Source: Echinarachnius parma
Taxonomy: Eukaryota > Echinodermata > Echinoidea > Clypeasteroida > Echinarachniidae
Assembly (NCBI GenBank): GCA_037951105.1
Contig: JBAMJV010009725.1
Location: forward strand, 1-64,000
DNA length: 64,000 nt
Reading direction: 5' to 3'
Shown piece after piece: positions 6,951 to 46,600 of the stretch. A program made the position numbers and the translations under genes. Positions within the stretch are counted from its first letter, which is position 1, and every line of letters begins with the position of its first letter. Below the pieces are notes generated by a model. The model was not told the DNA's origin. It searched no databases and saw only the letters and a list, made by a program, of their open reading frames with translations.

Positions 6951-6952
6951 AG

Positions 6953-13383: not shown

Positions 13384-13444
13384 TTATGGGATTGGTGCTG
13401 GGGCCTGGCTCTGCTGGTACCGGGTCCACTTTTCCTGTCCAATC
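13384..13444 (-). CDS. Exon 9: avidin-like domain, last strand, and stop codon
   Basis: Acceptor tacttcacag|GATTGG joins in phase 2 to exon 8, giving HATL-IGQEKWTRYQQ. This corresponds to avidin ATRVGINIFTRL, with Gly kept, Asn118 replaced by Glu and Phe120 by Trp. A proline-rich tail (APAPIP) then ends at TAA, 13,386-13,384. The short exon is below ORF-calling size and was found by looking for the missing final strand. A possible ATTAAA polyadenylation signal lies about 25 bp downstream on the same strand. A 165-bp-arm hairpin sits in the intron just upstream. Confidence 0.8.
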
Positions 13445-13511
13445 CTGTGAAGTAGAGACAAATCAAACATACATTGCATTTAATATGTCATTACAAAATA
13501 GAAGTACACAT

Positions 13512-13842
13512 TTCTTTGCCCAGTTTGCCACTCAAAACAAAATGGGAGCAGAACTATAACCAGGAAGTATTTTATCATACTTTTTAATACTGAAAACGCT
13601 TCCATTGTGTTGAATTAAGACATACCCTTATAATTTGTAGAAAAGGTTTTGAATCAAACTTGCACTGCTACCATGTTCACGTAGCAGTGCAAGGTTGATT
13701 CAAAACCTTTTCTACAAATTATAAGGGTATGTCTTAATTCAACACAATGGAAGCGTTTTGAGTATTAAAAAGTATGATAAAATACTTCCTGTTTATAGTT
13801 CTACTGCCATTTTCTTTTGAGTGGCAAACTGGGCAAAGAGAT
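13512..13842. repeat. Near-perfect ~160-bp-arm hairpin in the last intron
   Basis: Left arm 13,512-13,671 and right arm 13,681-13,842 are near-perfect inverted copies with a 9-nt loop (catgttcac). The central stem is GCACTGCTAC / GTAGCAGTGC. It lies about 70 bp upstream of the acceptor of the final avidin exon. The rest of the intron to 14,470 holds nothing recognisable. Confidence 0.9.
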
Positions 13843-14473
13843 AAGCGTTTACCAGGTGCATCCATACATTTATATGAAAACCATTTAACACAATTATTTT
13901 TCAATGTTAAAATAATTGTTTCTTAAATAAGCCTATCAGTTTTGGATATTTATCAAAATTATAAGAACATTTATTAATTAGATAATTCAATGTGGACATG
14001 AAGCCTGATTGACCAAATGAATGACGGACTGTTGGACCGTTGTAAAGATATATTATGATTTAAAAGAACATTCTAAATGATGACTTGAGTACTTACTGAA
14101 CTAATCAATTGCTAATTATATTAATACAAGTCACTGAATGAATAAACGGAAGATCGATGAAGCATCATTTAAAGGAAAGAAAACATAACAGGCTAAGGAA
14201 GAAAGGAGGGTACAGAAAAGTATCAGCAAAACGATATACTGCATAGAGAGAATGAATTATTGAACGGGAAAAAAGAACGAATTAAGTGAAGTGAGCGATA
14301 CTGAAATGGAAGCTGGAAAGAGCAAAAAAGGAATTCTAAATATTTTGGAAAGTGTTTGCCGAGGCTGTCTTGAAATAGACACTACAAATCAAATGTCAAA
14401 ACATTCATATGTTTAACTCTTTCGAAGTCTACATCTCTCCTCAACATAATATTAAGTCTCTTAAACTACTTAC

Positions 14474-14660
14474 AGAGTGGCATGCTTGATGTCCGCACAT
14501 GTGGTGACTCGGTTGGTGTTGGTCCAGGTCGTGTAGAGCACCTCCTCCCCTCCGCAGAACTTACTCTGGCCGGACCAACTTGTTGTCGACTTGCCGTTGT
14601 CACGCGACACCACGAACCCAAACGTCGGGAAGTTGCAATAGCCAACGAGCACGGTTGGCG
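14474..14660 (-). CDS. Exon 8: avidin-like domain, central part
   Basis: 187 nt, begins phase 1 (acceptor ctttcag|CGCCA) and ends phase 2 (CTCT|GTAAGTAG). The translation contains FPTFGFVVSRDNGKSTTSW followed by SGQ and VLYTTW, a clear match to avidin PTFGF...STT...TGQ...VLKTMW. Avidin positions Ser75, Thr77 and Trp97 are kept and Phe79 is Trp as in streptavidin. The Trp70 position is Arg. The Trp110 position appears to be Ile (ADIKHAT against DDWKAT). Read straight through, the donor sequence gives a stop after HATL. Splicing to 13,444 instead restores the missing last strand, so the donor is preferred. Confidence 0.87.
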
Positions 14661-15960
14661 CTGAAAGAATAACACGCACATCAATCTCATTACTCGTATC
14701 TACCTTGATATTTGCACAAGTTTAATTTCGAAAGAAATATTAACGCAATTAAATATTATTTTTTAAATAAAGGAGCACAGGTCATCCTTTAGAAATTGAT
14801 ATATTGTCAATATGAGCATTAAACATGTTGAACCGATCTTCAGGATGTTGCAGTTCTGCTGCCGCTGAGAAATTGAGACGTACAAATGTTACTACCAGTG
14901 TTAATCTCGAAGTTTATTTTGTTCTAAAAAAATAACACGTTTATCTTCGTCTTTTTTGTGAGACTACAAAGGGTTATTAAATATTCCAGAATAATGATCG
15001 CAAAACCAAAACCTTAAATGTAGCAGTATTGTTGGCACTCAGGTGATGATAAACTAAGACGTCCAAACGGACCAAGTCAATTCATTGCCTAAATGTATCG
15101 AGTAAGAATTTTAAGTTGGCATAAACTACAACATAAATACTGTCCCACGGAAATGGAAACCTAGAACCTTGAAGTGATAATCCCTATAGCAGCTCACTGG
15201 AACATTAAATAGTAAAATATCGAGGCATGGGCGTCGATCACGGGGGGGGGGGGGGGATATGGGGGATATATCCCCCCCCCCCCCCCAATATTTGAGGTGG
15301 GGGATGACCTGTATTATCATCCCCCCAAAAAAAAATATATATATATTTAGGATTCAATATATCTAAGTAAAGGGACATTGTCCCTATCATTCATTATGTG
15401 AAAGTTGATACAATTTAAACCACATCTTGAGAGTGCTAATCTGCCCAAATCCAAGATCTTCTGGGGGCTATGCCCCCTGGACCCCCATTATAGTAATTTG
15501 ACCCGGTGCCCTGTACACGTATAATAGTTATATTCAGGAGCTCTCGATATGCCCACTAAAATTTAGCTTATTATAATATATCTAATTATATTCCACATAC
15601 TAAGAATCTTGCTCTACGATTGGTCAAAAGTTAATCACGTGATGAAACATAGTTTCGCCCATCATTGATGGGAGAAGAAAACTTCGTTACACTGTGTAGA
15701 TATCTTGGGCGAAAGTGCGTTGCACTCACTAGATAATTGGTAAAGTACTATCTACACTCCGCGGTTGCATTGAATTTAACGTGGTGTGTGTGGCCACTCA
15801 AATTCCGTACCGGCGCGATAACTCTATGCGCGCGAATTACAAATTTAATTGTATTCGTTGTGCATACGGTAGTACACTGCACGCTATGCACTGTACATAC
15901 GTATTGTACATTACACCCTATACTGATTACACCGTTTGCTCGTTCTGTTGCTCTACTAAA

Positions 15961-16587
15961 ATGGCGGCCACAAGCGTAAGGTTTGAGCTTTTTGATGAGG
16001 ATGAAATGGACAAGTTTTTACTTGAGAGTGAAAGTAAAAATACAAAGCGACAACTTAAGTTCAGCCTGAAAGTGATCCAAGATTATTGCGATGCTGGAAT
16101 CATACATTTTGACAAACTGTCTGACATGGACTTGAAATCACTAGACCAAGTGTTGGGGAGATTGTATGCTGGTGTGAAATCGCGAAATGGTGAGTCATAC
16201 AGTAAGAAATCTCTACAAGCTTTGAGGTATGTGGTCTGCAGAGACATTTTTTGAATTTGCGAGACATAGACATTATCAAGGATACCAACTTTGCGAAACC
16301 TGGTCGAGTGTTCAAAACTGTTCTTACCCCCCCCCCCCCCCCCCCCCCGGGGGAAACTCAAGGAAGAGGGGAAAGCCAATGTAAAACATCATATACCTGT
16401 CAGTGAAACCGGCATGAACACGATTCAAGACAGTCTGTCTAGTCTAGACCAGGTCCAGGACTCTCCTTGTGCACTACAACGTAAAGTTTTCAATTTCATC
16501 GACATTATGACCAATTGTGCGAACAGGGGTGAAAAGAATTTGCATGTTGAACTGTTATGGAATTGTCATGGAATAACATATTGGTAA
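15961..16587 (+). pseudogene. Crypton-type tyrosine recombinase / DUF3504-like N-terminal fragment
   Basis: From ATG 15,961: FELFDEDEMDKFLLESESKN, NTKRQLKFSLKVIQDYC, LDQVLGRLYAGVKSRNGESY and SLQALRYVVCRD. This is the core-binding pattern (NTK..., LxxxLxxFxxxVRxxxGxxYxxxSL) of Crypton recombinases and their domesticated relatives (KCTD1, ZMYM and QRICH1 type). A slip in the T run at about 16,245 changes frame to RDIDIIKDTNFAKPG. After a poly-C tract, KLKEEGKANVKHHIPVSE and VFNFIDIMTNCANRGEKNL follow in a third frame. The catalytic C-terminal domain is absent, so this is a dead fragment. Confidence 0.75.
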
Positions 16588-16667
16588 GTAGATCAAACCT
16601 AGTAACACAGTAACAGTAGACTAGTACTAGATCTAGAAGACCTAGAAGATGAGGAATATAAAGCAAA

Positions 16668-16830
16668 TAATCACCTTATGGTTTCAGGCGATGGCAAACT
16701 ATCACTTCCTCGGCGATCTGAATGTATACGCTATCTTTCCTCAGCTTCGCTTCGGAAAGATAGCTACATCCAGATTGCCTCGGAAGTGATAGATTGTGCC
16801 ATCGCCTTTACCAACGGTAATTATTTGCTT
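16668..16830. repeat. Imperfect ~75-bp-arm hairpin
   Basis: gcgatggcaaactatcactt (16,689) pairs with aagtgatagattgtgccatcgc (16,785-16,806). The centre is CTATCTTTCC / GGAAAGATAG around 16,731-16,765. It lies just after the Crypton fragment. Confidence 0.8.
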
Positions 16831-17879
16831 ACTACATGTATTTAATAGCTAACTATATTCCTATTTAAATCTGGGCAACATATTTAGTTCTGTATAGCAA
16901 AATGCTCAAAACCAAAAGTTTCCGGGGGCTGCGCCCCCTGGACCCCCATTAGAGTCATTTGACCCGGTCCCCTGTACACGTATAATAGTTTTATTCACGA
17001 ACTCTCGCCATGCCAACTCGAATTTAGATAACTACATATCTAACTATTTAATAGCTAACTATGTTTCCTTTTTGAATCCGGACAACATCTTTAGTTCTGT
17101 ATATCAACCATTCAAAAGCTTCCGGGGGCTGCGCCCCCTGGTCCCCTAATATAGTAATTTGACCCTGTCCCTGTTACATGTATAGTAGCTTTATTCAGGA
17201 ACTCTCGCCACTATGCCCACATAAATTGAGCTAACTATGTAATAGCTAACTATATTTCCTATTTTAATCTGGACATCTTTGGTTCTGCATATCAAAAATC
17301 CAAAAGCTTCCGGGGGCTCCGCCCCCTGGACCACCATTGTGATTCCAGGGTTCCATTAAGGTGCTTGCAATTTGCGCTTTATAATCTTCAAATTTCTTAA
17401 CAGCTCAATCCAAAAGTTTGTGACCCCTATACCCCTCCCCCCCCCCCCCACCCCCTCCGGTCATAAAATCATAAAACTCCCTCGCTGAAGATGGTCAAAA
17501 TGACTTATCATCCCCCCAAAGGCGAGAAGAAATCGACGCCTATGTCTCGAGGTACTTTCAGAAATTTGCAGGGTTTGCAGCGCCATTTGAAACGCACACT
17601 TCTTATTTGTTAACAATGTTGAAGCTACTTATTTGCTAAAGACACCACAAAAATAATGACTATGTTCGCAGATGGTGAATTGTATTTGGTGCTGCTGGTT
17701 AGCAAAACACCAACGGCCGTTTTATTATAAGAAATTAGCAAATGTTTTATTTCACTACAAGCAGCACATCAAATATATAGACAATGCATGCCATGGATTA
17801 TACCATGGTTTACATAGATATCCTTTGTCAATGTAAGCCTTAAATTACACATGGAGTGCGAAGAAAGATAAGGCCTTAC

Positions 17880-17999
17880 CTGACATGCCAGTCAGCAATT
17901 CCGCGCTGTTCATGTAGTCACCGAGGATCATGCCAGTCGATGTGAGAGAAATGGTGATCTGATCGTTGCACTCATTGTACCAAACGCCTTCCATGTCAA
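17880..17999 (-). CDS. Exon 7: avidin-like domain, first part (strands 1-3)
   Basis: 40 codons, phase 1-1, acceptor gttttccag|TTGAC, donor GTCAG|GTAAGG. Translation GVWYNECNDQITISL then GMILGDYMNSAE matches the avidin N-terminal pattern G-x-W-x-N ... M-T-I ... G-x-Y. Compared with chicken avidin, Asn12 and Tyr33 positions are kept, Ser16 is Asp, Thr35 is Asn and Leu14 is Cys. The domain continues in the next two exons. Avidin domains form eight-stranded barrels, usually tetrameric, and sit at the C-terminus of sea-urchin fibropellins. Confidence 0.85.
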
Positions 18000-18039
18000 C
18001 TGGAAAACAAAAGAAAATACAAAAAACACAAAAACAGTT

Positions 18040-18185
18040 ATAATTATTATAATAATAAAGGTATAAATAATAACAATATTGATGACAATAATAATAATTA
18101 TATTAATAATGATAATAATACTACTACTACTACTAATAATAATAATAATACTGATTATAATATTTGTTTGTTTGTTTGTTTGTTA
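18040..18185. repeat. AT-rich and (TTTG)n microsatellites
   Basis: Runs of TAA/TAC trinucleotides followed by gtttgtttgtttgtttg, inside intron 6 just upstream of the first avidin exon. Confidence 0.9.
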
Positions 18186-18629
18186 AACACAGAATACACG
18201 GCCAAGTCGTATGGCTGTTATTGACAACAGTAAAACAGATTAACGAATGACATAATTTACAAAAGTACCAGATTAATTGACAGTACGATCTAACAATCAG
18301 AATTATCTAAAAATATATCTATATTATATTTTCGGAAAGAAGAATAAATAGCGATTCTATACATTAGACTTATTTCGGCTCAAAAATAAAACTACGTGTC
18401 AACATTTGAGTTGTTTTCAAAGTTTTGTCTTTTGTAAAAAACACATTTTGAACGTGGAAGTTAAATAATTAACAGGTATCCCATGACAAATATTTTGAGA
18501 TATTCAGTAACTACAGACATTTATTATGATATTGCAACAAAAAGAGCGCAAAAAGTGCTAAAATAGAGGAGATATTGTCGTTTGGAAATGTGCCTTCTCG
18601 GAGAGCTCTACGGTATGTGTTAAAGGTAT

Positions 18630-20300
18630 GGTGAAATCCCGGCTTTGATTCAAGTTTATAGCTTTAAATATGTGCCTATATTGATATACCACACTCCTTT
18701 TTTCAAAGAAATCCTTAAAGGAGGGGTGAAATCCCGGCTTTGATACAGGTTTATAGCTTTAAATATGTGCCTTTATTGATAAACCACACTCTTTTTTTCA
18801 AAGAAATCCTTAAGTTGGGAAAAAAAGGGAAATTTCACGCAACTTTTTTGCTTTATTACGCATCGGCGTTCCATGCTCCTAAAAAAAGTCATTTATAGCA
18901 GAGCTGGAATGTGCGCACGTGTCACCCGATTCATGACATCACATGCAGACCGCAACGCGGAGGAATGTGCATTGTTTACATGCAGAGCCTATGACTTGCT
19001 TGTAAAACAAACTCGTTTTTGCTTGTAAATTGAGGTTTTACTGAAAATGCTTAAGAATTGCTAAGAAATGAATTGTAGCAGGATGCAGCTACACATCTGA
19101 GTGTATATCGTCCATGATATAAACCTGAACAAATGTTTGCAAATATTGAAACAAATGGAAATAATATATCTGTGTCAACGTGAGTATTGCACTCAGCGTG
19201 TACGCCTATGACCGAGCTAAACTGCGATTGCCTGCAGGTGACGTCACAAAGATGACGTCATTTTGTGTTCGCCCGGGACTCAGTTTTTTTACGGGGGTTC
19301 CGAAAGTGAATTTACAAGTTGATTTTTTTATTTTACCGGGTTTTCCCACGAGGAAAATTTGTTTGTATTAGTAATCTTCATGAAAATCTACCTTAGATAC
19401 AGTAAAACCCAATTTTGAGGCAGATTTCTTGTCACCATACCTTTAAGTTGGGCAAGAAAGATAAATTTCATGCAACTTTTTTGCTTGTTTACGCATCGGC
19501 GTTCCATACTGCTAAAAAAGTAATTTACAGCGGAGCGGGAATGTGCGCACGTGCAACCCGGATCCTGACATCACAGGCAGACCGCAACACGGAAGAATGT
19601 GCATGGTTTACATGCAGAGCCTATGATTTGCTTGTGAAACAAACTCGTTTTTGCTTGTAAATTGAGGCTTAACTGAAAATTCCTAAGAAATGAATTATAG
19701 CAGCTTGCAGCATCACATCTGAGTGTAGATCGTCCGTGATATAAACTTTAACAAATGTTTGCAAATATTGAAAAAAATCGAAATAATATCTCTCTGTCAA
19801 CGTGAGTATTGCACTCAGCGTGTACGTCTATGACCGAGCTATACTTCTACTTCTACTTCTACTTGGGTACTCGACAGGGTCCATCAGTCAGGACGTAGAG
19901 TCGAGGGGAACCGGTGAGGTGTCCCATTAATTGCCGATTGAGGCAACTGCTCCCGCAAAGGCTCCTAGTGATGTAGAAGCCAATATATTATTGGGGAGCG
20001 CATTCCATGCTGTTACAGTTTGTGGGAAGTAGGAGTTCTGGTAAAGTAGGAGTTCTGGAAGTAGGAGTTCTGGTACTGCGATTGCCTGCATGTGACGTCA
20101 CAAAGATGACGTCATTTTTCTTCGCCCGGACTCAATTTTGTTACGGGGATTACTAAAGTGAATTTAAAAGTTGATTTTTTTATTTTACTGGGTTTTCCGA
20201 CGCGGAAAATATGTTTTTATTAGTAATCTTCATGACAATCTACCTTAGATACAGTAAAACACAATTTGTAGGCAGTTTTCTTGTCATCCAACCTTTAAAC
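18630..20300 (+). repeat. Tandem duplication with an internal retroelement insertion
   Basis: A 92-bp block beginning gtgaaatcccggctttgat is duplicated at 18,630 and 18,724. Next comes a ~640-bp unit at about 18,810-19,440 (cgcatcggcgttccat, tgtgcgcacgtg, tgacgtcacaaagatgacgt). It is repeated at about 19,446-20,300, where it is interrupted by 19,841-20,075. Each unit ends in CTTTAA. Short frames here are not genes. Confidence 0.85.
19841..20075 (-). mobile_element. 5'-truncated non-LTR retrotransposon (RT C-terminus plus 3' tail)
   Basis: Absent from the otherwise matching unit upstream, so the insertion borders are clear (gagcta | ... | tactgcg). Minus-strand translation reads YFPQTVTAWNALPNN and SLGAFAGAVAS, the conserved end of Jockey/CR1-like reverse transcriptases. 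After a stop and a short 3' UTR it ends in GTAGAA repeats, which appear as cttctacttctacttctac on the plus strand. Confidence 0.75.
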
Positions 20301-20394
20301 CGGAGTCGGTACGCTGTAGATTATTCTAGACGTGATTTAACACGCCTGAAGATTGGCTGGGTTATTATAGATAGCCATACCATTGTTGGAATCC

Positions 20395-21530
20395 ATACCA
20401 GGCAGTGCAGCATGTTGTTAATCACTGCCATATATGATGTTTCCCTGATAGTTTTACTTTAAAGGGATAGTTGAGTATTGGTCAAACTTAACTTTAGTAA
20501 TCAAAACCTGCACCATTACGGTACAAAGTAATAGTTATAACTTCACCATGCTCGAAAAGTATACAAAATTACAAACGGCTAAGTAAAACCCCTGTTATCA
20601 TTCAGAAAGAGCTGTTACAACTCCAGGGCGCTATTTAAACAAAATCATTGGTTTTAGCCTTTTTTCATACAAAATTGTGCATTTAATGTTTGTTAAAATA
20701 ATGATTCAATAGAGATATCATCAACGACTTTTTAAAAACCTGTTCTAATTTTTTACAAAGTAGTCTTCGAGCATTTTTTGAAATTTGTCTAAAAAGTCTA
20801 ATATCGCCCGGTGATTGCCGGTGAAGAACATTTTGAATACATATATATGGATATTTCAGTCGTTTCTGAACCTATTTTGATCAAATAAAGTTTATTCTGT
20901 CTTTAAAATTGTATGTTCTTTCGAATTTGACAGTCAGTTTTTCATTATCTCACAACAAAATATCGGGCACTTCGGAAAATACCAATACTCAACACAACCT
21001 TTAAGGGGACTATTCAAACAGCAAAAGCTGCTCTGACCTGGCTTTCTCATCCTAGGCCTGACAATACGAGACTATGAATCAATTTAAACATGGAAAACTG
21101 ACCAGAAATCTATGATATAAATATATGAATATAATGTAAATGAAAATGATTAAGAAATGTGTGCTTCACTGGGAATCAAACCAGAGACCTCTGGTTTACT
21201 ATACCAGTGCTAGTGATGATTGTCCATCCCAGACGTCCTGTACTATGGTCGTGCTAGTCAGAAGCTGTACACACCTAGTACAAACTTGAAGGATATTGAA
21301 AGCAACTTAGGAGTATATGCAAGGGATCACTGAGGAGATTCAGACTGTAAATGTATGGGATGGACAATCATTGCTAGCACTGGTCTAGTAATCTGGAGGT
21401 CTAGGGCCTAGGATTAGAAAGCCAGGTCAGAGCAGCATTTGCTGTTTGAATAGTCACCTAAAAGTAAAACCATCAGGGAAACACCATAGAGGGCAGTGAT
21501 TAACAACATGCTGTACTGCCTCGTATTGAT
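20395..21530. repeat. Nested foldback repeat with MITE insertion
   Basis: Outer arms: ccaggcagtgcagcatgttg (20,398) pairs with caacatgctgtactgcctcg (21,506), continuing through tccctgatagttttacttt / aaagtaaaaccatcaggga. Inner arms: ttcaaacagcaaaagctgct (21,013) pairs with agcagcatttgctgtttgaa (21,432). A TTAA MITE (20,459-21,004) sits in the outer left arm junction. Confidence 0.75.
20459..21004. mobile_element. piggyBac-like MITE (AGGGATAGTTGAG family), copy 1
   Basis: TTAA at both ends. Left end AGGGATAGTTGAGTATTGGT, right end accaatactcaacacaacct. Internal sequence (tgctcgaaaagtatacaaaa, gaacctattttgatcaaat) matches the other copies. Confidence 0.75.
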
Positions 21531-22730
21531 TGCAAGTGTTATCAGAATTCTGATCCTATTCTCTTCGAATAAAATCTTTGGTCAAGTCTATGTTCAGTGT
21601 GTTATAATCATATCAAACTTTCCTCTGCAGACCACTTGGAGTTTGTTTAAACTTGTTTGAGTGTTCTTTTCAGTGAGCAATATAGTTATTCAGATCAATG
21701 TATGCACTATGCGGTAACAATTTTGTATTTGGATTTTGCGCCTGTTTTTGTAATGCAACACAATTCTCCCAATATATGATGAAAGGGTATGTACTCATAT
21801 TGTGATACTGATTGGAGGGGTTGTGGATTTAAGAAACAGGAATAATATCGAGGGCACACCTTATGTACACAATTGTGTTATTTATGATAGTTATGTATGT
21901 TATCTATAATACCATTTTTCACATATTATTAGGGGGGTGTGCCCCCAGGCCCCCCCCCCCCCTCCCTTTAGTACACTACTGAATAACAAAGCATAATATT
22001 ATTTTGTGTGTGTATGACGTGTTTCTGTAGGAGGGGGAGCACACAACTTACTGGGGGCATGTAAGTTCTATGATTTCTTGATTCTTCCTATTCACGCTAT
22101 TTGTAATAATATCACTGTAAAGCGCTTATAGATGATTATCAATCATATTAGGCGCTATATAAATCGAGTATATTATGATTTATTATTTGTATTTTGTTGT
22201 TAATTTATTGGGGGGGGGGGGGGGTGCCCCAGGCCTGTTCCCCCTGGATCTATGCCACTGCCCACAGACATACATTATGTCGTTATCTGTAGCCTATGTG
22301 TCTTATTTGAATACATACATGCTTCAAAACATAGAAGTTCTAGTGTTATCACCTAACATAGATGGCGATCATTTTGGAATATGTTCATATGGCATAATAA
22401 GTGGTCAATGACCTCTTACCTTTATCCTTATGACCCAGAAATATATTCATATGACATTTATTCCTAAAGTTACATATATGTACTATGTTTGCTGCCAATT
22501 TATTGAATGGTTCTCAAGATATGCCAAACAATGATTTTTTTGCATATATAATTAGTGTTGTGACCTTTGACCTCATAACCTCCAAATTTCACCAGATCAT
22601 TGCCTAAGTGCATTCATACAGGGAACCAGATTCGTTCAAATCGGCCTACTAGTTCTTGAAATATAGCGATAAACATAACACACTGGCAGCCATTTTTTTA
22701 AAGGGCGCCCATGGTCACCAGAGGCCATGG
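21531..22730. other. Intron 6 sequence with repeat tails
   Basis: No gene. A poly-C tract (21,943-21,964), gtaaagcgcttatagatgat at about 22,117 followed by ggcgctatataaatcgag (a common SINE/non-LTR 3' tail form), and a poly-G tract at 22,209-22,224. Confidence 0.5.
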
Positions 22731-22731
22731 G

Positions 22732-22832
22732 CCTCGATCTGTAATTGATACCCATTCATCAGGGGGGATGATCTATTCATTCATCCCTCCCCCTGATGAA
22801 TAGGTATTACGTAAGTATCGACGCCCATGCCA
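22732..22832. repeat. ~100-bp hairpin element (GGCGTCGAT family)
   Basis: Left arm ttgatacccattcatcagggg (22,747), right arm cccctgatgaataggtatta (22,791), inside catgggcctcgat ... atcgacgcccatg ends. Sister copies lie at 52,350-52,440 and 61,029-61,131. Confidence 0.8.
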
Positions 22833-22954
22833 GAGGCCAATTCCGAGGTGGCTCGATATCTTAATTTTGCTTAATAATTACCTAGTCTTCATGTATGCTC
22901 GGTTTCATGCTTTTATCATCAAGTGGACAATTCGCCTAAATGTGCCAGCTAATC

Positions 22955-28020: not shown

Positions 28021-28043
28021 AATTGTGTATATGTATATCTTGC

Positions 28044-28214
28044 CTTCTATTTCTTCACACTGAACGACAGGGCTCCACTCTCCGCCATCGCACGTAGTCT
28101 GTTTAGCGGGGGATCCATCGTCTAGCTTGTAATCACGATTGCAAGAGAACGTGACGATATCAGCATAACTATAGCTGCCAGTACCATTGGTGTTCGCTGG
28201 GGCACTACAGCTTT
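28044..28214 (-). CDS. Exon 6: CCP/sushi module 5
   Basis: 57 codons, phase 1-1. Acceptor is ttttgcag|AAAGC. The donor is GAAG|GCAAGA: a GC donor, since no GT donor keeps both phase and frame at this point. Cysteines are in ESCSAPANTNG, FSCNRDYKLDDG, TTCDGGE and VQC, with Trp in GEWSPVV: a complete short-type sushi module. There is one potential N-glycosylation site (NGT). This is the last CCP before the avidin exons, about 10 kb downstream across an intron occupied by a 4.8-kb foldback. Confidence 0.85.
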
Positions 28215-29110: not shown

Positions 29111-29119
29111 ACATTTTTA

Positions 29120-30004: not shown

Positions 30005-30196
30005 CTAAACATGTCGATAGGTTTGAAGGTCTCCATCTCCCGTCCTCCCCACATGTGGCGGTTTCTGGTCCTTCGATAGTGTCCCCCTCAACACTGCATG
30101 TGAAATCGATATTCTCATATCTGTCGTATGTAGACTTATCTGGTGTGATTATTACATCTGGGTCTGTGACGTTGGGCCTGGAACACTGGGCCGCAG
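30005..30196 (-). CDS. Exon 5: CCP/sushi module 4
   Basis: 64 codons, phase 1-1, acceptor tttccag|CTGCG, donor GTTTAG|GTAATA. Four cysteines (AQCSRPN, FTCSVEG, ATCGEDG, STC) and Trp in GRWRPSN define a full sushi module. Potential N-glycosylation sites are NVT and NLS. It is the sister of module 2. Modules 2+3 and 4+5 look like a duplicated long/short pair, since modules 3 and 5 are also sisters with the same GC donor. Confidence 0.87.
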
Positions 30197-30386: not shown

Positions 30387-30480
30387 AAGGGATAGTTGAG
30401 TTTTGGTAAAGAGAGTACAGTTTCGACGTTTCGAATAGGTTGACTATCCGTCGTCGGATAGTCAACCTATTAGAAACGTC
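30387..30480. repeat. MITE end joined to a short hairpin
   Basis: aaagggatagttgagttttgg is the TIR of the TTAA MITE family. It runs into a 28-bp-arm hairpin: cgaataggttgactatccg / cggatagtcaacctattaga around CGTCGT. Confidence 0.7.
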
Positions 30481-30504
30481 GAGTCCCTCCTACCATCCAC
30501 CCTC

Positions 30505-30912
30505 TCCTCGCAATACCGACAGTCCTTTCTAGGACTATCAACAGTCCTTTCTAGGACTACCAACTGTCCTTTTTAGGACTCTCCTAGAAAGAATACCAAC
30601 AGTCCTTTTCAGGACTATCCCAACAGTCCTTTTCAGGACTATCCAACAGTCCTTTCTAGGACTAACAACAGTCCTTTCTAGGACTACCAATTGTCCTTTT
30701 TAGGACTCTCCTAGAAAGAATACCAACAGTCTTTTTCAGGACTATCCCAACAGTCCTTTATAGGACTACCAACAGTCCTTTCTAGGACTATCAACAGTCC
30801 TTTCTAGGACTACCAACAGTTCTTTTTAGAACTCTCCTAGAAAGAATACCAACAGTTCTTTTCAGAACTACACCAACAGTCCTTTCTAGGACTACCATAG
30901 TCCTTTTCAGGG
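30505..30912. repeat. Minisatellite of ~20-22-bp self-complementary units
   Basis: About 18 units of the form caacagtcctttctaggact followed by a few variable bases. Each core AGTCCTTTCTAGGACT is an imperfect palindrome. A higher-order block (AATACCAACAGTCC ... CTCCTAGAAAG) recurs three times. It lies in intron 4 between CCP3 and CCP4. Confidence 0.92.
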
Positions 30913-31220
30913 CTTACCAATCCACCCATCTCACATGGTGTACCCGTAAACCACACGTATTATATACACCACCATGGAAACCGATACTTACAAGCAACAT
31001 TTATACTAATCTTATCGCGCTCAATATCTTCATTAACTTTATTTAATTACGTAGTACGTATATGAGCATATTTAAATTAATAGAAAGTTGATACATATTA
31101 AACATACTCAAAAATATGAATTTAAGAAATTGGAGCGTAAATCGCATTAGCGTATAATTATCAACATTTAAGACAAACGTATTAAACTATAATCAAATTT
31201 AAGAATACCCGTGTATAGCT

Positions 31221-31738: not shown

Positions 31739-31771
31739 TGTTTGTATTAATTATTAATCTGTAGGACTTGC

Positions 31772-31932
31772 CTTCTCTCTCGATACATTGAATCGCAGGG
31801 TCCCATTCTCCATCAACACACCGAGTAGGGCTTTCGCCGACTAAGGCGAATCCACTATCACAAGCGAACGTTAAGACATCTTCATGGCCGTACCGTCCAG
31901 TATCATTGCTGTTGGCGGGGGAATGCAGCTTC
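31772..31932 (-). pseudogene. Exon 4: CCP/sushi module 3 with a 1-nt frameshift
   Basis: The acceptor tttgtag|GAAGC and a GC donor GAAG|GCAAGT bound a 161-nt exon. The paralogous exon at 28.2 kb is 171 nt, and any symmetric phase-1 exon must be a multiple of three. Past the CCCCC run the exon reads as a good sushi tail (FACDSGFALVGE, TRCVDGEWDPAIQC), but the first cysteine (GSC) is in another frame. Alignment with the 28.2-kb exon places a one-base deletion in the C run. Either the module is dead and skipped, which keeps frame, or the base is missing from the assembly. A gypsy-like fragment starts 40 bp beyond the donor. Confidence 0.75.
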
Positions 31933-35270: not shown

Positions 35271-35453
35271 CTGAACAGGACGGCTCAGTCACAACGATCC
35301 ATGTCAAATCTGGATTACAAGTGGCCAATACCGAGCCCTCGATGACCCCCTCGTTGTCGCAGGTGAACTCAACGTTATGGTTTTGCTCGTAGAAGGACTG
35401 GTCCGGCATGAAAATGATGTCAGGGTCAGTGTAGTTTGGCTTGGAGCACATGG
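35271..35453 (-). CDS. Exon 3: CCP/sushi module 2
   Basis: 61 codons, phase 1-1, acceptor tcaaaag|CCATG, donor TTCAG|GTGAGC. Cysteines occur in MCSKPNYTDPD, FTCDNEG, ATCNPD and PSCS, with Trp in LTWIVV: a complete four-cysteine sushi module. The motif TDPDIIFMPDQSFYEQ closely parallels TDPDVIITPDKSTYDRY in module 4, so the two are sister modules. A potential N-glycosylation site (NYT) is present. An in-frame ATG at the exon start is an internal Met, not a start codon. Confidence 0.85.
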
Positions 35454-36499: not shown

Positions 36500-36650
36500 T
36501 TTATGCTAAAGACCTTTCGATTGAAGTTAAAAGCACATGGGCAAAAAATGTTCTATGATAATAAGGACACACTCACTACAATCCTAAACAGACACCAACT
36601 AAATGTAAATCTTACCAAGACCAAGATTGCATGTATGGACCACCAGTGGC
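36500..36650 (+). pseudogene. Reverse-transcriptase scrap
   Basis: Frame with KDTLTTILNRHQLNVNLTKT, resembling the 'LNVNLTKTK' motif C-terminal to the catalytic box of non-LTR reverse transcriptases. It is cut by the poly-G repeat that follows. Confidence 0.5.
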
Positions 36651-37060: not shown

Positions 37061-37079
37061 TTCGCACATCAAAAATGAC

Positions 37080-38700
37080 GGGTACGCCTATGTGGACCAC
37101 TCTGTTGGGAGGAGCCTGTCCCTGTCGCGGAACGGCATCCATCGTAACATATATAGTAACTTTCACTTTTATACAATTCCGTGCCATACTGAACAGCATT
37201 CTCATACAAGCTCCAGGAAAAGACCCATCTACAAGAAAGAGTTACAGACCGGCTTTACTTCTTGCAACACCTTCAAGCTGTTTAAGCGACTAATTCTGAC
37301 GCGCCTATAAAGTGCAGTTGTAGAACCATCTCTGATGAAGGGGCAAGCAGGACTCCGGCCTGGGAAGTCTTGCACAAGCCAACTGCTCAAACTTATACAC
37401 CCATAATAGAAGATGGTTTGCAGCAAGGTGTCTTAACTGGAGCTGTGTTTGTAGACCTCTCCGCAGCGTATGATAATGTCAACCACCACAGGCTCCTACA
37501 CAAACTACTGAATGTGAACAACATGCACCTGACCTACATGGTGAAGAACCTAATTGAGAATAGACTCTTCTTCGTCGAGCTGTCTGGAAAGAAGAATCGT
37601 TGTCATAGGCAGAAGAATTGCCTCTCCCGAGGGCGCGTTCTGGCCCCAACTCCGTTTAACATAGATCTATGTTAACGACCAGCCTATCTACTATGAGACC
37701 AGGAGCTTCATCTATGCAGACGACTTTTGTATCACCACCCAACGTGATGAATTCCCTAAGGCAGAAGCCCCCTTGTGCGAGGGTCTTACTAACATATTCT
37801 CATACTACAAAGAGAACCGTCTGAAGGCTAATCCAACGGAAGCTGAAGATCACTGGAATGGAACTAGACTGGAACACCGTGACAGTCCTGTCTACCTAGG
37901 GATGACCTTAAATATATATTTGAAATACAATGTTCATATCACCAAGCTCAAGGGGAAGGTCAGCTCCAGGAATGCCTTTCTTGGCAAACTGAACACATCC
38001 AAGTTGGGAGAAAACCCGACAACAATCAGAGCTACCGCTCTAGCTCTCTGTAACTTTACTACATAATATGCCTGTCTGGTTTGGGAACGCTCATCACGTA
38101 CATGCAAATAAGATTTATCCTGTGCTTAACACAATTAAGCTGCCGTTACATCACAGGATGAATGAGACCAACTAGGAATAATGTGCTCCCTGGCATCGCA
38201 CCCCCTAAATTAAGGAGAGCTGTCGCTAGCCAGAATGACCGACTGAGACAAACATAATACCAAAGGCATCCCCTCCATGACCACCCACTGCATCCACGGC
38301 GCCTTAAGTCAATGAAAAGCTTCCTTTCATCTGTTGAGCCTCTGGCCTGCAGTGTGTCTTCAAGAAGGCGTAAACTCTGGGAAGAGAGACTGGAGGAGAT
38401 GCCAGTAGACAAGCGTTTGCCTATGCAGCCATCAGATAAACTGCCAGAAGGAACTAACCAACCCCGGATGACTTGACTTAGCCTAAATAGGCTTCGGTCA
38501 GGCGTGTGAAGATGCAACTCCAACATGTTGAACTGGGGATACATCGAAGGTGCAGCAGAGTGCGAGTGCGGTCAAACCCCTTACACCAATGACTACCTGC
38601 TTATATAGTACATGAAATGTGCAAAATCGAAGATCTGGCAGACACTAACAATGTAACGTTCAGGTTTGCCCGCCATTGGCAGGAAGTTGTGTGATAATAC
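37080..38700 (+). pseudogene. Decayed non-LTR reverse transcriptase
   Basis: Motifs in order through several frames: KSYRPALLLAT (37,233), GAVFVDLSAAYDNVNHHRLL (37,440), ENRLFFVELSG, then FIYADDFCITTQ (37,708, catalytic box), YYKENRLKANPTEAE, DSPVYLGMTL, and a C-terminal ECECGQTP zinc-knuckle-like end near 38,555. This is the typical layout of an invertebrate non-LTR RT family. Stops and frameshifts throughout; no endonuclease part seen. Confidence 0.8.
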
Positions 38701-38769
38701 AAAATGATAAATTATACAAGCTACAAATTGCTATTTATAAGGTGAAATAAATTTTCGAGACCGAGGTCT

Positions 38770-39000
38770 TAAAAGCGGCCTTGTTTTGTTGTGATAAAAA
38801 TGAGACCCTGATTAGGAGCGGCGATCGGCCTTTTAAAATATTATATGCAAATGGGACCCTTATAGGAACGGCGATCGGCCTTTTCAAAATAAAAATGGGA
38901 ACCTTAGGAGCGGCAACCAGCCTTTTTGATGAAAATGAGAATCTTATGAGCAGGGAGTGGCCTTTAAAAGAAATGAAAACTGGACCCATATTAGGAAGAG
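38770..39000 (+). repeat. ~60-bp tandem repeat (GGAGCGGCGATCGGCCTTTT)
   Basis: Four to five diverged units of gagcggcgatcggccttttt ... aaatgggaccct. A further short copy is at about 54,088-54,160. The open frames across it have no other support. Confidence 0.75.
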
Positions 39001-39079
39001 TCGAACCGGCTGTGAAAACGGGGGTCTTTGAAGCGGCTCATATCACCGTTTGGCAAAATGTATACACAAACCCCCTACC

Positions 39080-41950
39080 CCCGGATACTAGTTAGCTAAT
39101 TAAGAATTAAGACAGTATGGCAGCTGAATGAAGGAATGTCCACTCAGGCGATATAACATTTGGATGTCGTCAATATTGGATAAATAAAACAAAAGGTCTA
39201 AAGTATGCATTGCACGGCGAATAATTAAAGTCCATTGTAATTAATATAAGAGTTCAATTGGCCTGAACTGAAGCCAACTGCCATGTTTTTCTTGAGACGG
39301 TTACTGATTGTTGTTTTTATTTTCGTGAAGATATTACTTGTACAGTATCTGTCACTCTTCATCTCTTGTGTTCAACAAGAGCTGATAACAAACATTGTTT
39401 GGTGTAATGTTATAGTATACGTCCAGTGACTTATTGGGGTCATTGATATTGTTGATGGTTGACCACGGTTTCTTACTCTTTTTGATCGACATGTCCACAT
39501 TGATTTTCGCAGCTCATTTTCGCTGCCATAGGTATCTCAATCTCCTAATGAGTTCAAGGGATATTTTGAAATATGGTGTGTATCGGTACTAAAAAAGAAA
39601 AGGCGTTTAAATTAAAAAAGTTCAACAGATATGTGAGTTGCATCCTTCGTTGTTATTGAACCTTAAATGAGACGTATTAAGCTCTTCCCTTTTCTGAGAA
39701 AAGGGGTTGTCCAAGCAAACAAGTAATACAGAACATTTTTTTAAAATCTGGCTAGATGTATTAAGAAATTTAGTTTGTTATGCTTTTATTTGATATTCGT
39801 AAATATATTTAGATATAAATATCTCACTCAGTGCTAGATTAACAGGGCTGAAAAATAGTACGTGAACACATTATTATGTAGCGCAATGTATTTTCCTAAT
39901 TAATTTCCAAAGGTAACGTTTAGACATTTGTTGTCTAAATTAGACCAGACAACAAATACAATACTATACATACATGTCCTGAAAAGTATGCACAAAAATT
40001 GAGTTGTCTACACAAAACGGTCAGTTTGAGACAAAAACTCATAATTGGGGTGGGATCGAATAATGAACTGTCCACATAACATATTAATTTGTTCTCTTGT
40101 CCGAAATGTGATGCCAAAAATAAGAATATTACAAATACTAAAAAAACTAATTTCTGATCAGAACTTTCCCCTAATAATTTGCTTTTACTTTATATTTGTT
40201 GATAAATAGGCCATCGGAAAATCCCTATTGCACTTTAATGGTAACATTCAGATCAGAAGGAGTAAGGCCTGATTTAGACCTTTAAAAAAATTAGGTACAA
40301 CATAAACGTCGAAAAGTAAATTTGTATAATAATACAAGCAAAATATCAAAATTTATATACAAATCAGACAGTTAGAGAAAAAAAATCATGATTGTCTGAA
40401 TTTATAGGATTTGTAATGTATTTAACTAATTTCATTAAATAGCGCCTTATATGATGACCTTTTGCAATTCTACTTATTGTAAACTGAAAACCCCCATTAG
40501 ATTTACAGATGTGCCACATATGAGAGTGATTGGCCCTCAAATAAAGAAATTAAAGAGGAACCAATATGTACCAACTTGTGCCCTAGATAACATGGCCATT
40601 ATATGCCTTAAGGTTGCATAATATGACGCATGGTGATTACGTAATCAAAAGGTCCCTTTTGAACATTATATTCAAGGAATAATCACGTTTCTGATTTAAA
40701 TACACTTCCACTAGTAGACATCATAAGTTTAAGCTCACTGCCATAATTTTCATGATGAAAAAAAAAAAAACTGTATTTTTAATGAACATTTTTTACCGTT
40801 TTGTTCATACGCCAATTTAATGACGTCATAAAATTATGAAGCAAATCAAATATGACAACGAAAATTTGTTTGTACTTATATAAACATGGCTATCGGCAAA
40901 GTTTAGTTGATAAAAGACATTATGAAATGAGAGCATTAAATGCAATCTCAATTTTCACCAACCATAAGAAATGTAGCAAAACATGAAAAGGTGCTATTTT
41001 TACATACCTCCAAAAAAGTTGTAAAAAACATAGTATAAATGAGTTTTTCTCTTGTTAACATTTTGTTTCTAACATTGGACATATCAATGGACCAAATGAC
41101 ACCCAATTCGGAGGATCATAGAGGGGGGGGGGGGGAGCGGTGACCGGTAGGCCCCTCTGGCCCACAGACTACTATGGCAGATAGTAAAATGACGTCATGT
41201 AAAATACATAGTAAATCTATTTTTAATCACATGACGTACTATTTACTAATCGCATGGCTAGAACATTCGTATGAGGGATACAATAACATGTATGTTATGC
41301 AGGACCCGCTGGAAGATAAGTGTTTGTCACTGAAGTGGCTACCTTGAAGATAAGTGTTTGTCACTGAAGTGGCTACCTTCGGTAAATAAAACATTATTAT
41401 CATTGTAATTATATCTTAAAATGTAAATTATGCATATCTCGCCGTTTATGAACGGACTGTGATATATATACAAAAAACCAAAATGTTTTGTTTAGGATTA
41501 TAAAATGTGTTCTATTTATGTTCTCTTACAACTTTAATATCAGTTTTCCTCTACCTCGCAAACAAAATATCTACCATTACTTTACTATCCTTTTAAAATA
41601 GCTTATACAGAGTGTATATACCAAAAAATAAGGTAATCGACGTTCAAATATCAATATTTTTAAGATGTTACATTCTCATAATTTCAATCAGGCGTTGATG
41701 TAAAGAGTAGTTATTCAACTTTAATTTGACACCTTTCCTGAATCAGCAATGTCATGCATCGCTGATTTCTTTGTTGTTGAAGGTGACAAGCGCATAACCA
41801 AAGTTTTGCAAGTCTGGGCTTAAAGTGAAAGCTTAAAAGTAAAATAATAGTGCCACAAAAAAACATCAACTTGAACCATTTTTGTTGGGTTTGCGAGTTA
41901 CTGAATCATTTAGCTGAATACATTCACCGATATCATGCATGATTAAGTAC
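39080..41950. other. Intron 2 sequence, no gene recognised
   Basis: AT-rich. A poly-G tract at 41,123-41,136 and a direct duplication of gaagataagtgtttgtcact + gaagtggctacctt at about 41,311-41,383 are the only clear structures. Confidence 0.6.
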
Positions 41951-41953
41951 ATT

Positions 41954-42527
41954 TTAAAGGGATAGTTGAGTTTTGGTAGAGAGGGCGCTACACAAACTAA
42001 TTTTTTGTGAGATAATGAAAAACTGAGTGTTAAATTTGCAAGAGCATACAATTTTAATGGCAGAATAAACTTTATTTGGTCAAAATCGGTTCAGAAACGT
42101 CTGAAATATCTATAAACATTACCATTTGTAATAAATGTGGGGCCCCACAAGTATTCAATAATTTTGAACCAGCCGTTAAAATTCGTTTTAAAATGCTTCC
42201 TCTTTTCAAAAATGTTTAAAAGAGGTTTTTAGATAGTTGTTGATTATCTCTCTATCGAATCACTATTTCTACAATACATCACATGCACAATATTTTATTT
42301 CAAATGGTTTAAACAAATTCGTTTTTTGAAAGCGCCCTCTTTCGTTTAAACAGCTCTTTTTGAATGATAACATGCTTTTTACTAAGTCGTTTGTAATTTT
42401 TGTATTCCTTTTGAGCATGGTGGAGTTATAGCTATTAATTTGTAATGTAATGATGCAGGTTTTGGTTACTAAAATTCAGTTTGACTAAAACTGTACTATC
42501 TCTACCAGAACTCAACTATCCCTTTAA
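41954..42527. mobile_element. piggyBac-like MITE, full-length copy 2
   Basis: TTAA target duplication on both sides. TIRs AGGGATAGTTGAGTTTTGGT and accagaactcaactatccct, imperfect by one base. Internal gcgccctct and gtttctga blocks match copies at 20,459, 46,930 and 54,817. 42,530-43,090 beyond it holds nothing recognisable. Confidence 0.85.
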
Positions 42528-43100
42528 TTGAACATGAATATACGCTGATCTGCCATCCACCAGGATTCAATTCTGATGTTAAAATATCAGTTGTAAAAAA
42601 GGGATATCTTGGATAGCAACTTTGAGGAAGGTCAAGTGATTGGGCCATTTTTCTTCAAAGGAATTAACATTAACTGGGAACATATGTACCTTCCGATGAT
42701 ATTTCAGTTGGAGGAGCACATTATGCGACAGGTCCTCTGATTAAATTTTTGTTTTACTTCTTCCTTTTGGGAGATTTGAAGAACAAGGTGTGTACATCTT
42801 CTCATGACCTGGATTATTTGCAGGGCCGCACTCGACATGAAGTGGATGTTTTAGCCAACAAATAAAAACTAGCCAAAACTTGCAAAAAGTGGGTTCTTCA
42901 ACAACAAAGAACTCAGCGATGCGTGACATTGTTGATTCAGCAAATGTATCAAATTAAAGCTGAAAAGTTACCCCTTACATCCATATCTCATTTATGGTGT
43001 GAACGTATATAATTTTGAAATAATTGACCTTTGAACTTCGATTAACTTTTTGTATACACTTTGTATGTATATTTTTTTATTTCCTGCATTTTCGCTTTAC

Positions 43101-43298
43101 CTGTACAAGCTGTATCTGACGGGCCTGGATTCCAGTACTCGGGCGTGCCATTGTAGTCTGAGCTGCAGTAGAAGGTGGTATATCCTGAAACAGCATACCC
43201 TGGCTCACAGGACGCTGTGTAGAGGATCCAAGTCCCGTATGAGGGTTGGTCTGGTTCGATTATCACATTGTCTTGCAGGTCTGTGGGTCTGGCGCATT
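43101..43298 (-). CDS. Exon 2: CCP/sushi module 1
   Basis: 66 codons, phase 1 at both ends. Acceptor is gaattag|AATGCG and donor is ACAG|GTAAAG. The module starts ECARPTDLQ and has the four CCP cysteines (EC, ASCEPGY, FYCSSDY, DTAC) and the tryptophan in EYWNPGP between Cys3 and Cys4. It is the first extracellular module after the signal peptide. It resembles the 'long' CCP type at 35.4 and 30.1 kb (shared pattern P-N/D-V-I-I-x-P-D). A foldback transposon begins only about 160 bp upstream, in intron 1. Confidence 0.85.
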
Positions 43299-43457
43299 CT
43301 AATTCAGAACACAATACACTTATAAACCATTCTGATACTAAAATGTCAACTGTTAAGCTGTTCCCTATATGATTTTGCAATGCACATAGAGTTTATATAG
43401 AGTCCACCAGGTTCCCATAGGCATTGTGATAATTATGCATACATCGTCCTACGGACT

Positions 43458-45732
43458 TATGGCAAGCCGTTTTAACATTTATTCCTATTTCTTGATATCA
43501 AGAATTGAATTCTTGATATCAAGAATTCGACTTCTTGATATCAAGAATTCATTTCTTGATATCAAGAATTAATTTCTTGATATCAAGAATTACCATTGCT
43601 TTACAACAGAAAATCATTTCTTGATATCAAGAATTGATTTCTTGATATCAAGAAATCAATTCTTGATATCAAGAATTCATTTCTTGATATCAAGAAATCA
43701 ATTCTTGATATCAAGAATTCATTTCTTGATATCAAGAATTCAATTTTTGATATAAAAAAATAGAATTCATGATATCAAGAATTCAATTCGTATTTCGAAC
43801 GCAAGACTATTGCAATAATTATTTTGATATCGAGCGCAAAAGTAATGCAAAAATTCACAATTGATTTCGAGCGCAAAAGTAATGCAGAAATCCATTCTGA
43901 TTTCGTGCTCAAAAGTTGTGCTAAATTCATTGTGATTCGATTTCGAACGCAAAAGTTGTGCACGAATGAATCCTGCCTGAGTGGTGCGGTGTCGAAAGTC
44001 AATGTATCGCGAAAATTCAACTAATGCAAGAATTCATGTTGCCAGTTTGCAGTGCATTTACTGTCTCTGTGATATTCCTTGTAGAAAATTTTCATTTCAT
44101 ACTGTTTGAACATATGTTTTTTAGACAATTGATTAATGTTACATTGCAAATGTTGGATGTGATTTTCCAGTTTAATTACTTGTTATAAAACACGCGTCTT
44201 TCAAAAACGTCAAACGGCAACATATCAAGAAATCATTTCGTGATATGTTGCCAATAGACAATGCGCAAACCTGTAGCAAAGATTACCCCGTGTGTAATAA
44301 TATATTCACGTTTTTACTGCGCAATTTATTTCAAAATATTTTTGATCACGTCAGTTAAAATAATACTGTCCGATCTGATCATTTTCAGCAAAAAGACATC
44401 TAAATTGACTTACAAAACACGCATTGTAAAAATGATAAATTGGCAACATATCAAGAATTCATGCGGAACTAATGAATTTGTGATATGTTGCCAAATTGTG
44501 CATTTACAATGCGTATTTTGTAAGTCTTTTTAGGAGTTATTTTGCTTTAAAAATATCACATCTGACGTTACTATTTCAACTAAAATACAAGTATATTTTA
44601 CAATTGATCATTCAGAAAAACACGTGGACATATTTATTGCACAAGGGACAATCTTTACAACAGGTTTACGCAACGTTTATTGGCAACATATCACGAAATG
44701 ATAAAAACGCACGTGGCCGATATTTGGGCTCAGACTGCAGCAGTTATGTTTACTTAGGCTCTAGGGCGGTGTACATGTGTACACAGCTCTATGGTGTGTG
44801 TTCACAAAGCACGTCCTGAATCTGGACTAGAGACTGCGGCAGTTTTGTGAATAGGCTCTAGCGCGAGTCGTATAGGGCGGTGTGTACATGGTGTGTGTTC
44901 ACAAAGCACTTCCTGAATCTGGACTAGACACCGCACCGCTCAGGAGGAAATCGTGCAATACTTTTGCGTTCGAAATCAGAATGTAATCCTGCTCAAATCT
45001 TGCGTTAGAAATCAGAATGTAATCCTGCTCAAATCTTGCGTTCGAAATCAGAATGAATACCTGCACAACTCTTGCGTTCGAATTCAACTGTGAATTTATC
45101 CACTACTTTTGAGCTCGATATCCAAATGAATTCTTGATATCAAGAATTGATTTCTTGATATCAAGAAATCGAATTCTTGATATCAAAAAATAAATTCTTG
45201 ATATCAAGAAATGAATTCTTGATATCAAGAAATCGAATTCTTGATATCAAGAATTCGAATTCTTGATATCAAGAAATGAATTCTTGATATCAAGAAATCG
45301 AATTCTTGATATCACGAAATGAATTCTTGATATCAAGAAATCGAATTCTTGATATCAAGAATTGAATTCTTGATATCAAGATTTACCATTGGTTAACAAC
45401 AGAAAATTATTTCTTGATATCAAGAATTCGAATTCTTGATATCAAGAAATGAATTCTTGATATCAAGAATTCATTTCTTGATATCAAGAATTCAATTCTT
45501 GATATCAAGAAATGAATTCTTGATATCAAGAATTGATTTCTTGATATCAAGAAATGAATTCTTGATATCAAGAAATGATTTTCTGTTGTAAAGCAATGGT
45601 AATTCTTGATATCAATAATTGAATTTTTGATATCAAGAAATGAATTCTTGATATCAAGAAGTCGAATTCTTGATATCAAGAATTGAATTCTTGATATCAA
45701 GAAATAGGAATAAATGTTAAAACGGCTTGCCA
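43458..45732. mobile_element. Foldback (FB-like) transposon with arms built of palindromic satellite units
   Basis: Flanked by an 8-bp direct repeat TACGGACT (43,450-43,457 and 45,733-45,740). Ends tatggcaagccgttttaaca and tgttaaaacggcttgcca are inverted. Each arm has an outer array of AATTCTTGATATCAAGAATT-type palindromes (11 good copies left, about 21 right) and an inner array of ~37-bp units with ttcgagcgcaaaagtaatgc (left) or its inverse (right). The central ~850 bp carries smaller hairpins (ggcaacatatcaagaa / tttcgtgatatgttgcc) and no transposase. Lies in intron 1. Confidence 0.88.
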
Positions 45733-46527
45733 TACGGACTATACATGGACTTTCAATGATCCAGTAATGCTAAAGGCATAGCATACTTTGTAACAAATCT
45801 AAACGTTATTGATTGAGGGAGTGCTAGATGTGCTGTAGAATGCAGTAAAAAAAATATATGAACATGAAAAGTAATTTGTAAATTCGTTGTCACTTGATGC
45901 AAGAAACACTGGATGGTCTAATTAAATTTAAATATAATTTAATTTTGGTTTATCCAAACGTTTTGAATCAAAAGTCCTAAGACTAATAAATGTCATATTC
46001 TAAAGTAAAACTAATTTTTATGGAAACAGTAATCGGTACGTTAATTCATTATGATATTTCAATTCATTTCATTTCATTTTATAAGTTATATTATATTTTA
46101 GAATACCTATCACATTATGAATTTCACAAGTAAATAAGTTTTATAATGTCCATGTTTGTAACGTCTCTAAAAAACTGTTGTATGATTAGTATTGAATAAT
46201 TTATATTTTTGGTCAGTTTCTCCAGATGTTTAAAATAGTTTTGGAGATGATATGAGTGAAATCAATACAAATAAAATGAAATTAATACGTGGTTTGGAGT
46301 GAAATATGTACCAAATCTTAGACATAATATTAATAATGTTAATGATTTTTGCAAAAGCTTTTATTGCCAGGCGATAAGACATAACCAAGGGTGTGATTAC
46401 TAATATTTTACCTACGAAATCACAGGCTTTGCCATTTGTCCCACAATGTTACCAAGTATACTAATTTGTGTCAGTTTCAGTTTGGACAGTATGTGACGAC
46501 AACTGACTCCATGGTCTTGCTACTTAC

Positions 46528-46600
46528 CTTGTGTAGAGGAAGAGAAGAGGCATGCCAGTATTAATATCACCAGGAACGAAGAAGGCTTTGCTTCCTCCAT
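46528..46600 (-). CDS. Exon 1: start codon and signal peptide
   Basis: ATG at 46,600-46,598 opens a 24-codon exon: an acidic/basic N-terminus, a hydrophobic core (FLVILILACLF) and a small-residue cleavage region (SSSTQ). It ends CAAG|GTAAGTAG, a strong donor, in phase 1. The product would be targeted to the secretory pathway. A longer overlapping reading frame on this strand is in another frame and lacks the signal-peptide pattern. The exon and its upstream flank are almost identical to 240-312, which supports selection on the coding part. The first base of the next codon is G, which joins AA of CCP1 to give Glu. Confidence 0.85.

Follow-up and report, generated by a model that had tools for sequence, protein, structure and literature searches.

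Architecture of the CCP-avidin gene

The minus strand of a 64,000-nucleotide (nt) stretch of the Echinarachnius parma genome (contig JBAMJV010009725.1, positions 1 to 64,000, hereafter the window) carries, between positions 13384 and 46600, eight exons that splice in phase into 1185 nt, or 394 codons and a stop, and specify in 5' to 3' order a signal peptide, four complement control protein (CCP, or sushi) modules and an avidin domain divided over three exons. All of these parts had been proposed in a first-pass annotation of the same DNA, and all are present. The signal-peptide exon (46528–46600, with its ATG at 46600 and a phase-1 end; the peptide was judged by eye) shares 95.8% amino acid identity with an exon at C5500:181998 and 87.5% with one at C5500:158790, C-numbers denoting contigs of the assembly. 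It is followed by the CCP exons CCP1 (43101–43298, 198 nt), CCP2 (35271–35453, 183 nt), CCP4, or B (30005–30196, 192 nt), and CCP5, or C (28044–28214, 171 nt), each of phase 1-1, and, after an intron of 10 kb, by the avidin exons AV1 (17880–17999, 120 nt, phase 1-1), AV2 (14474–14660, 187 nt) and AV3 (13384–13444), the last ending in a TAA stop. The entry phase is 1 for exons 2–7 and 2 for AV3, and splice sites are GT-AG throughout except for the CCP5 donor, which is GC (AG/GCAAGA). A further CCP-like exon, CCP3 (31772–31932), measures 161 nt against 162 nt in two sister exons with which it was compared, the missing base falling in a run of C; being one base short, it is unusable in frame as assembled and is skipped by the 394-codon model. 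The window copy has four usable CCPs as assembled, and five if the shortfall of CCP3 is a sequencing error, which accommodates the four to five CCP exons of the first-pass annotation.

Both profiles that the annotation had suggested running on the joined translation score above their cut-offs. Pfam Avidin (PF01382) matches residues 275–382 at 2.4e-23 and 83.2 bits (cut-off 24), spanning profile positions 2–116 of 116, and Sushi (PF00084) reaches 5.7e-12 and 46.3 bits (cut-off 20.7), with three stretches passing. Taken alone, the CCP2 exon scores 14.1 bits, below the Sushi cut-off, and the in-frame piece of CCP3 scores 28.6 bits; the four CCP modules of the protein hold 16 cysteines, four to a module. 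Chance open reading frames (ORFs) are ruled out by the Pfam scores together with the agreement in phase.

A sequence search of the PDB returned xenavidin as the top match to the avidin part (9e-8), and in this alignment an arginine and a lysine stand opposite the two biotin-stacking tryptophans of xenavidin, at positions 70 and 110. In those portions of PMC8033661 that concern the biotin pocket, Trp70 and Trp110 (chicken numbering) are located within it, fibropellins are described as not binding biotin, and the replacements W110K and W70R in avidin are said virtually to abolish binding. The window avidin thus lacks the tryptophan pair of biotin binders and has the Arg70/Lys110 pair of the fibropellin type, found likewise in the EGF-bearing gene of contig C1491. 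PMC10336842 and PMC8092661, both citing Yanai et al. 2005, refer to the fibropellin avidin domain as one that serves assembly or dimerisation. In view of Arg70/Lys110, biotin binding by the window domain appears unlikely, and a part in subunit assembly likelier. By eye, AV1 of window-type avidin also starts without the GYC of the C1491 fibropellin, and ANQN is missing ahead of PTFGF, as is the first cysteine of CQLC; the two cysteines lost together perhaps formed a disulfide.

Compared with known proteins, the window gene appears to be a variant of the fibropellin-type avidin mosaic equipped with CCPs. Sea-urchin fibropellins share with it a C-terminal avidin domain with Arg70 and Lys110 and phase-1 modular exons, and the fibropellin-like C1491 protein is 92% (AV1) and 84% (AV2) identical to that of the window, but no EGF repeats were found in the window gene, where three to five CCP exons take their place. 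The window protein is about one third the size of fibropellin I. Vertebrate avidins (chicken avidin, xenavidin, zebavidin) are related through the avidin domain, as judged by Pfam and by the PDB match, whereas the window protein is multidomain and has both Trp70 and Trp110 replaced. CCP-only proteins such as complement regulators similarly open with a signal peptide and go on in tandem CCP modules of one exon each, but the window protein ends in avidin where further CCPs would stand. Searches of open-licence PMC papers turned up no description of a CCP and avidin combination.

A gene type repeated in the genome

The assembly searched comprises 1.20 Gb in 14,790 contigs and fits a sea-urchin host: bindin, a sea-urchin sperm protein, has a match of 126 bits, and cytochrome oxidase I is open along one contig when TGA is translated as Trp, the conserved stretch PRMNNMSFWL emerging under the echinoderm code and not under the general invertebrate code, the two codes compared. 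In this assembly the Pfam Avidin profile has 31 matches; 22 mark core (AV2) places and nine are AV1 exons or partial repeats. EGF and CCP exons around these loci were called by pattern and by eye, not by hidden Markov model. CCP exons lie just 5' of avidin at five of the 22 core places (the window, C5500, C6957, C6353 and C4916), always in the order CCP then avidin and in one orientation, on contigs of diverged sequence. EGF exons lie upstream at eleven (C1491, C12898, C4254, C2227:67k, three on C6366, C1280, C141, C4127:145k and C7281), and neither kind was seen at C3447, C4127:120k and C5442 over the ~3.4 kb, ~4.4 kb and only ~0.1 kb read, respectively. The remaining places are two on C2227, which had no upstream reading, and a fragment, C11085. 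Since C5500/C6353 and C1491/C12898 are probably allele pairs, the real number of genes is below the number of loci.

Two of the paralogs are intact, each with a signal peptide, three CCPs and avidin in the same phases and free of stops: C5500:158790-170916 encodes 332 residues within 12 kb, and C6957:17447-28543 encodes 333 within 11 kb. The GC donor recurs in both at the exon equivalent to CCP5, and the AV2 protein of the window is identical in C5500, C6353 and C6957. The CCP-to-AV1 intron is collinear among the window and these three contigs, its pieces being 77–95% identical, so that the linkage of CCP to avidin is older than the split of the four copies. The EGF-like pattern is absent from the window and from L010, L016 and L018 (C5500, C6957, C6353), whereas the C1491 control yields 12 such ORFs; no CUB domain was seen around the window gene, in a search confined to CCP and EGF patterns. 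Given open-frame paralogs of the same type on C5500 and C6957, it may be regarded as largely settled that the CCP and avidin ends belong together. The interpretation in the first-pass annotation is supported in part: the architecture that it posited is a repeated gene type, and the avidin is of the fibropellin, non-biotin kind. The intact paralogs have three CCPs rather than four or five, and the secretion, oligomer formation and immune or matrix role suggested in the annotation are putative.

The same clusters contain tandem CCP genes whose signal peptide and opening three CCP exon types are those of the CCP-avidin genes, followed by an exon D and in some by E and F as well. By exon matches these lie at C5500:182k-189k and 193k-209k, C6353:79k-84k, C4916:22k-29k and C6957:104k-125k, and are CCP-only as far as read, their 3' ends lying beyond the reading. 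At E 0.01, exons D, E and F have no match in the window, nor between CCP-C and AV1 of C5500 and C6957.

Synonymous divergence (dS) differs between the two ends of the gene. For pairs among the window, C5500 and C6957 it is 0.20-0.31 in the CCP exons and 0.027-0.069 in the avidin exons, indicating older splits or faster change in the CCP ends and young or homogenised avidin ends. The ratio of nonsynonymous to synonymous change (dN/dS) in avidin, for the window against C1491/C12898, is 0.20-0.22. The CCP exons of the three copies contain zero stops, where random placement of the substitutions predicts 2.9-3.8 per pair; the probability of zero is 0.027, 0.020 and 0.056 for the three pairs, which share sequences and are not independent. 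Exon lengths in the three copies differ by multiples of three only (the window CCP2 and CCP3 have no counterpart), while indels that are not multiples of three number 22 in 3271 columns of the collinear intron between the window and C5500 (6.7 per kb), 34 in 3663 columns for C6957 (9.3 per kb) and 29 in 3482 columns for C6353 (8.3 per kb). Stop-free exons of frame-keeping length argue that the frames have been kept in the window, C5500 and C6957, with weak constraint on the CCPs.

Apart from this family, a divergent avidin gene (C3447:14586-17132 and C5442:26371-28285; L002, L003, L040) retains, by eye, Trp70, Trp110 and Ser16 and is accompanied by additional partial AV2 exon copies in tandem; it is possibly a true biotin binder.

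Parent gene, junction and mosaic structure

In a tree of avidin exons from nine loci the five CCP-avidin copies cluster together (support 0.873) beside C1491 and C12898, both of which have EGF exons upstream of avidin. The dS between this group and C1491/C12898 is 0.13-0.25, as against 0.053 between C1491 and C12898, which makes the split of the group a few times as old as the divergence of those two presumed alleles. On C4916 the left junction of the fusion can be located at ~10745-10748, where TGTA is common to both sides. To the left, 173 of 188 positions (92%) agree with the intron that follows exon C in a CCP gene at C5500:207040, avidin-free as far as read; to the right, the match to C1491 begins at 139146, inside the last EGF exon, and its first 73 bases hold ~2 mismatches, so that C4916 retains the relic of half an EGF exon. 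At the other end, homology to C1491 stops at 142665 in the window, C4916, C6957 and C5500, and the flank beyond is common to these four; the reading of C6353 stopped short of this boundary. The corresponding stretch of the window (12230–18321, minus strand) comprises AV1-AV3, their introns and 3' flank, with later insertions, in pieces 69.5-91.5% identical to C1491:139239-142665, its outermost bases being placed by the match to C4916:10836.

These boundaries indicate that a ~3.5 kb fibropellin 3' end was captured, most simply once. A single capture whose left edge was later altered in copies of the window type would fit best, and two captures sharing the right end seem less likely. A dispersed repeat of ~75 bp (C4916:10668-10744; L021), with ~30 other matches among those listed, stops at the fusion junction and may have contributed to the joining event.

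The window copy itself reads as a mosaic whose CCP2-CCP3 part resembles CCP-only genes. CCP1 has its best other matches at C6957:35091 (74%) and C6957:107332 (67%). The CCP2 region, of a type known from CCP-only sister genes, shares 95.4% nucleotide identity over 607 bp with C6957:117.6k (L032), and the nearest DNA to CCP3 lies at C6957:121982 (84%) and C4916:72262 (76%), again in genes that are CCP-only as far as read. CCP4 is 87% identical to C5500:183755, likewise CCP-only within the stretch read, and 85% to the CCP-avidin copies at C6353:59013 and C5500:160549; from CCP5 on, a region 95.7% identical to C6957, the window is CCP-avidin-like. Between CCP3 and CCP4 lies a dispersed repeat (30452–31003, minus strand) found at dozens of places elsewhere, mostly at 89-99% (best 40 of 2895 matches). 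With the repeat excluded, the best 40 of 56 matches to the CCP3 side comprised nothing but CCP-only genes (C6957:122k, C4916:72k) and repeats, and the best 40 of 669 to the CCP4 side included six family places; within these matches no second contig has the two sides adjoining.

Elsewhere in the window, a second signal-peptide exon encoding an identical 24 residues (241–312, minus strand) is, by exon match, the first exon of another family member that leaves the contig end. On the plus strand, 2036–9906 holds non-LTR retrotransposon-like ORFs with similarity to an L1 RNA-binding domain (RBD, 2.8e-5) and to reverse transcriptase (2.6e-34), as well as an endonuclease-like ORF that falls below cut-off (2.2e-4).

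Origin and possible role of the family

The explanation favoured here, with a probability of about 0.72, is that the window gene belongs to a young sea-urchin gene family that originated when a fibropellin 3' end was captured; that event with its junction, the gene that served as parent, the CCP-only sisters and the mosaic all go beyond the first-pass annotation. A segment reaching from within the last EGF exon, past the three avidin exons, to ~0.75 kb into the 3' flank would have entered a tandem CCP gene, landing in the intron that follows its third CCP exon. Since CCP exons, EGF exons and AV1 all have phase-1 borders, splicing would at once have yielded a signal peptide, three CCPs and avidin, the EGF remnant being skipped, and the module would then have spread through the tandem CCP genes by duplication and recombination. 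We infer that the gene is transcribed and its product secreted, and that an avidin barrel which no longer holds biotin would join subunits together and thereby present a number of CCP arms on a single core, a division of labour in which variable arms bind and the conserved core assembles.

Several observations weigh against this account. The C4916 junction has no second contig among the best 40 of 853 matches, and the other four CCP-avidin copies match C4916 only from 10836, just past the equivalent of the EGF exon and ~90 bp further in; the mosaic of the window, too, is known from one contig. Two of the five CCP-avidin loci are intact, and the window copy has its short CCP3. C6353, with open B, C and avidin exons, carries several one-base insertions in its signal-peptide and CCP1 exons, and C4916, open in B, C and AV1-AV3, has a TGA in a CCP1 exon 8 kb upstream, 5' of which a signal-peptide exon was sought and not found. 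Among the window, C5500 and C6957, CCP dN/dS is 0.68-0.90, near neutral, and the avidin value is 0.33-0.46, slightly longer segments of the same copies giving 0.39-0.87 at dS 0.025-0.064; both ranges are computed from 2-5 synonymous changes per pair. The gene model is a prediction from genomic DNA, and the oligomer state and ligand binding of the protein are proposals.

The lesions and the near-neutral ratios would suit a dying or dead family, in which decay set in among the copies once the fusion had formed and left a pseudogene in the window; frame lesions are present at three of the five loci. Against such decay, two copies remain intact at a CCP dS of 0.20, no stops have appeared where about three or more per pair would be expected (P 0.020-0.056 for pairs that are not independent), and frame-breaking indels, which run at 6.7 (C5500) and 9.3 (C6957) per kb of the collinear intron, are lacking between the exons of the window, C5500 and C6957; the insertions in C6353, moreover, look in our judgement like assembly errors, and with such one-base errors about, an error in the window CCP3 is indistinguishable from a real lesion. 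Decay of the family is accordingly considered unlikely. It is also improbable that two adjacent transcripts are involved, CCP exons from a CCP-only gene lying next to an orphan avidin fragment. Genes with the same first three CCP types followed by D, E and F do occupy the same clusters, the CCP2-CCP3 part of the window is most like them, and the CCP5-AV1 intron is long, but the avidin exons begin mid reading frame with no signal peptide, the C5500 and C6957 copies are compact, phases agree in all copies spliced, and in the window, C5500 and C6957 no D, E or F match at E 0.01 intervenes before AV1. An assembly artefact joining unrelated DNA could draw on the signs of uncorrected one-base errors and on the junction and the mosaic each being confined to one contig; five diverged contigs with equal order and orientation, and a right boundary common to four copies, make it very hard to credit.

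A different question is whether the protein recognises anything. It might instead be a structural component, shorter than a fibropellin, of the apical lamina or extracellular matrix, as its derivation from a fibropellin-like gene would suggest and as the building of the embryonic apical lamina by fibropellins, where PMC10336842 describes it, would allow. This has a real though less than even chance of being correct: the gene has no EGF exons, and its CCPs vary far more between copies than its avidin exons, a pattern that suits recognition better than a matrix role. The recognition reading, in which the family would be a new class of multivalent binder with fast-changing CCP arms on a non-biotin avidin core, created recently when a fibropellin 3' end cut within an EGF exon joined a CCP gene through a 4-base match, its arms still being reshuffled in tandem clusters and the window gene one such reshuffle, is in its full form put forward only tentatively.

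Under the favoured explanation of a captured fibropellin end, a single genome displays the parent, the type of recipient, the product and one scar in which the EGF exon is cut, which opens the birth of a domain architecture to direct study. Exon shuffling is commonly inferred only long after the event, and the CCP-avidin case would catch one of its scars. It would likewise show avidin re-used as an assembly module beyond the EGF proteins, in CCP proteins too, and it raises the testable question of whether different arms on one core bind different things.

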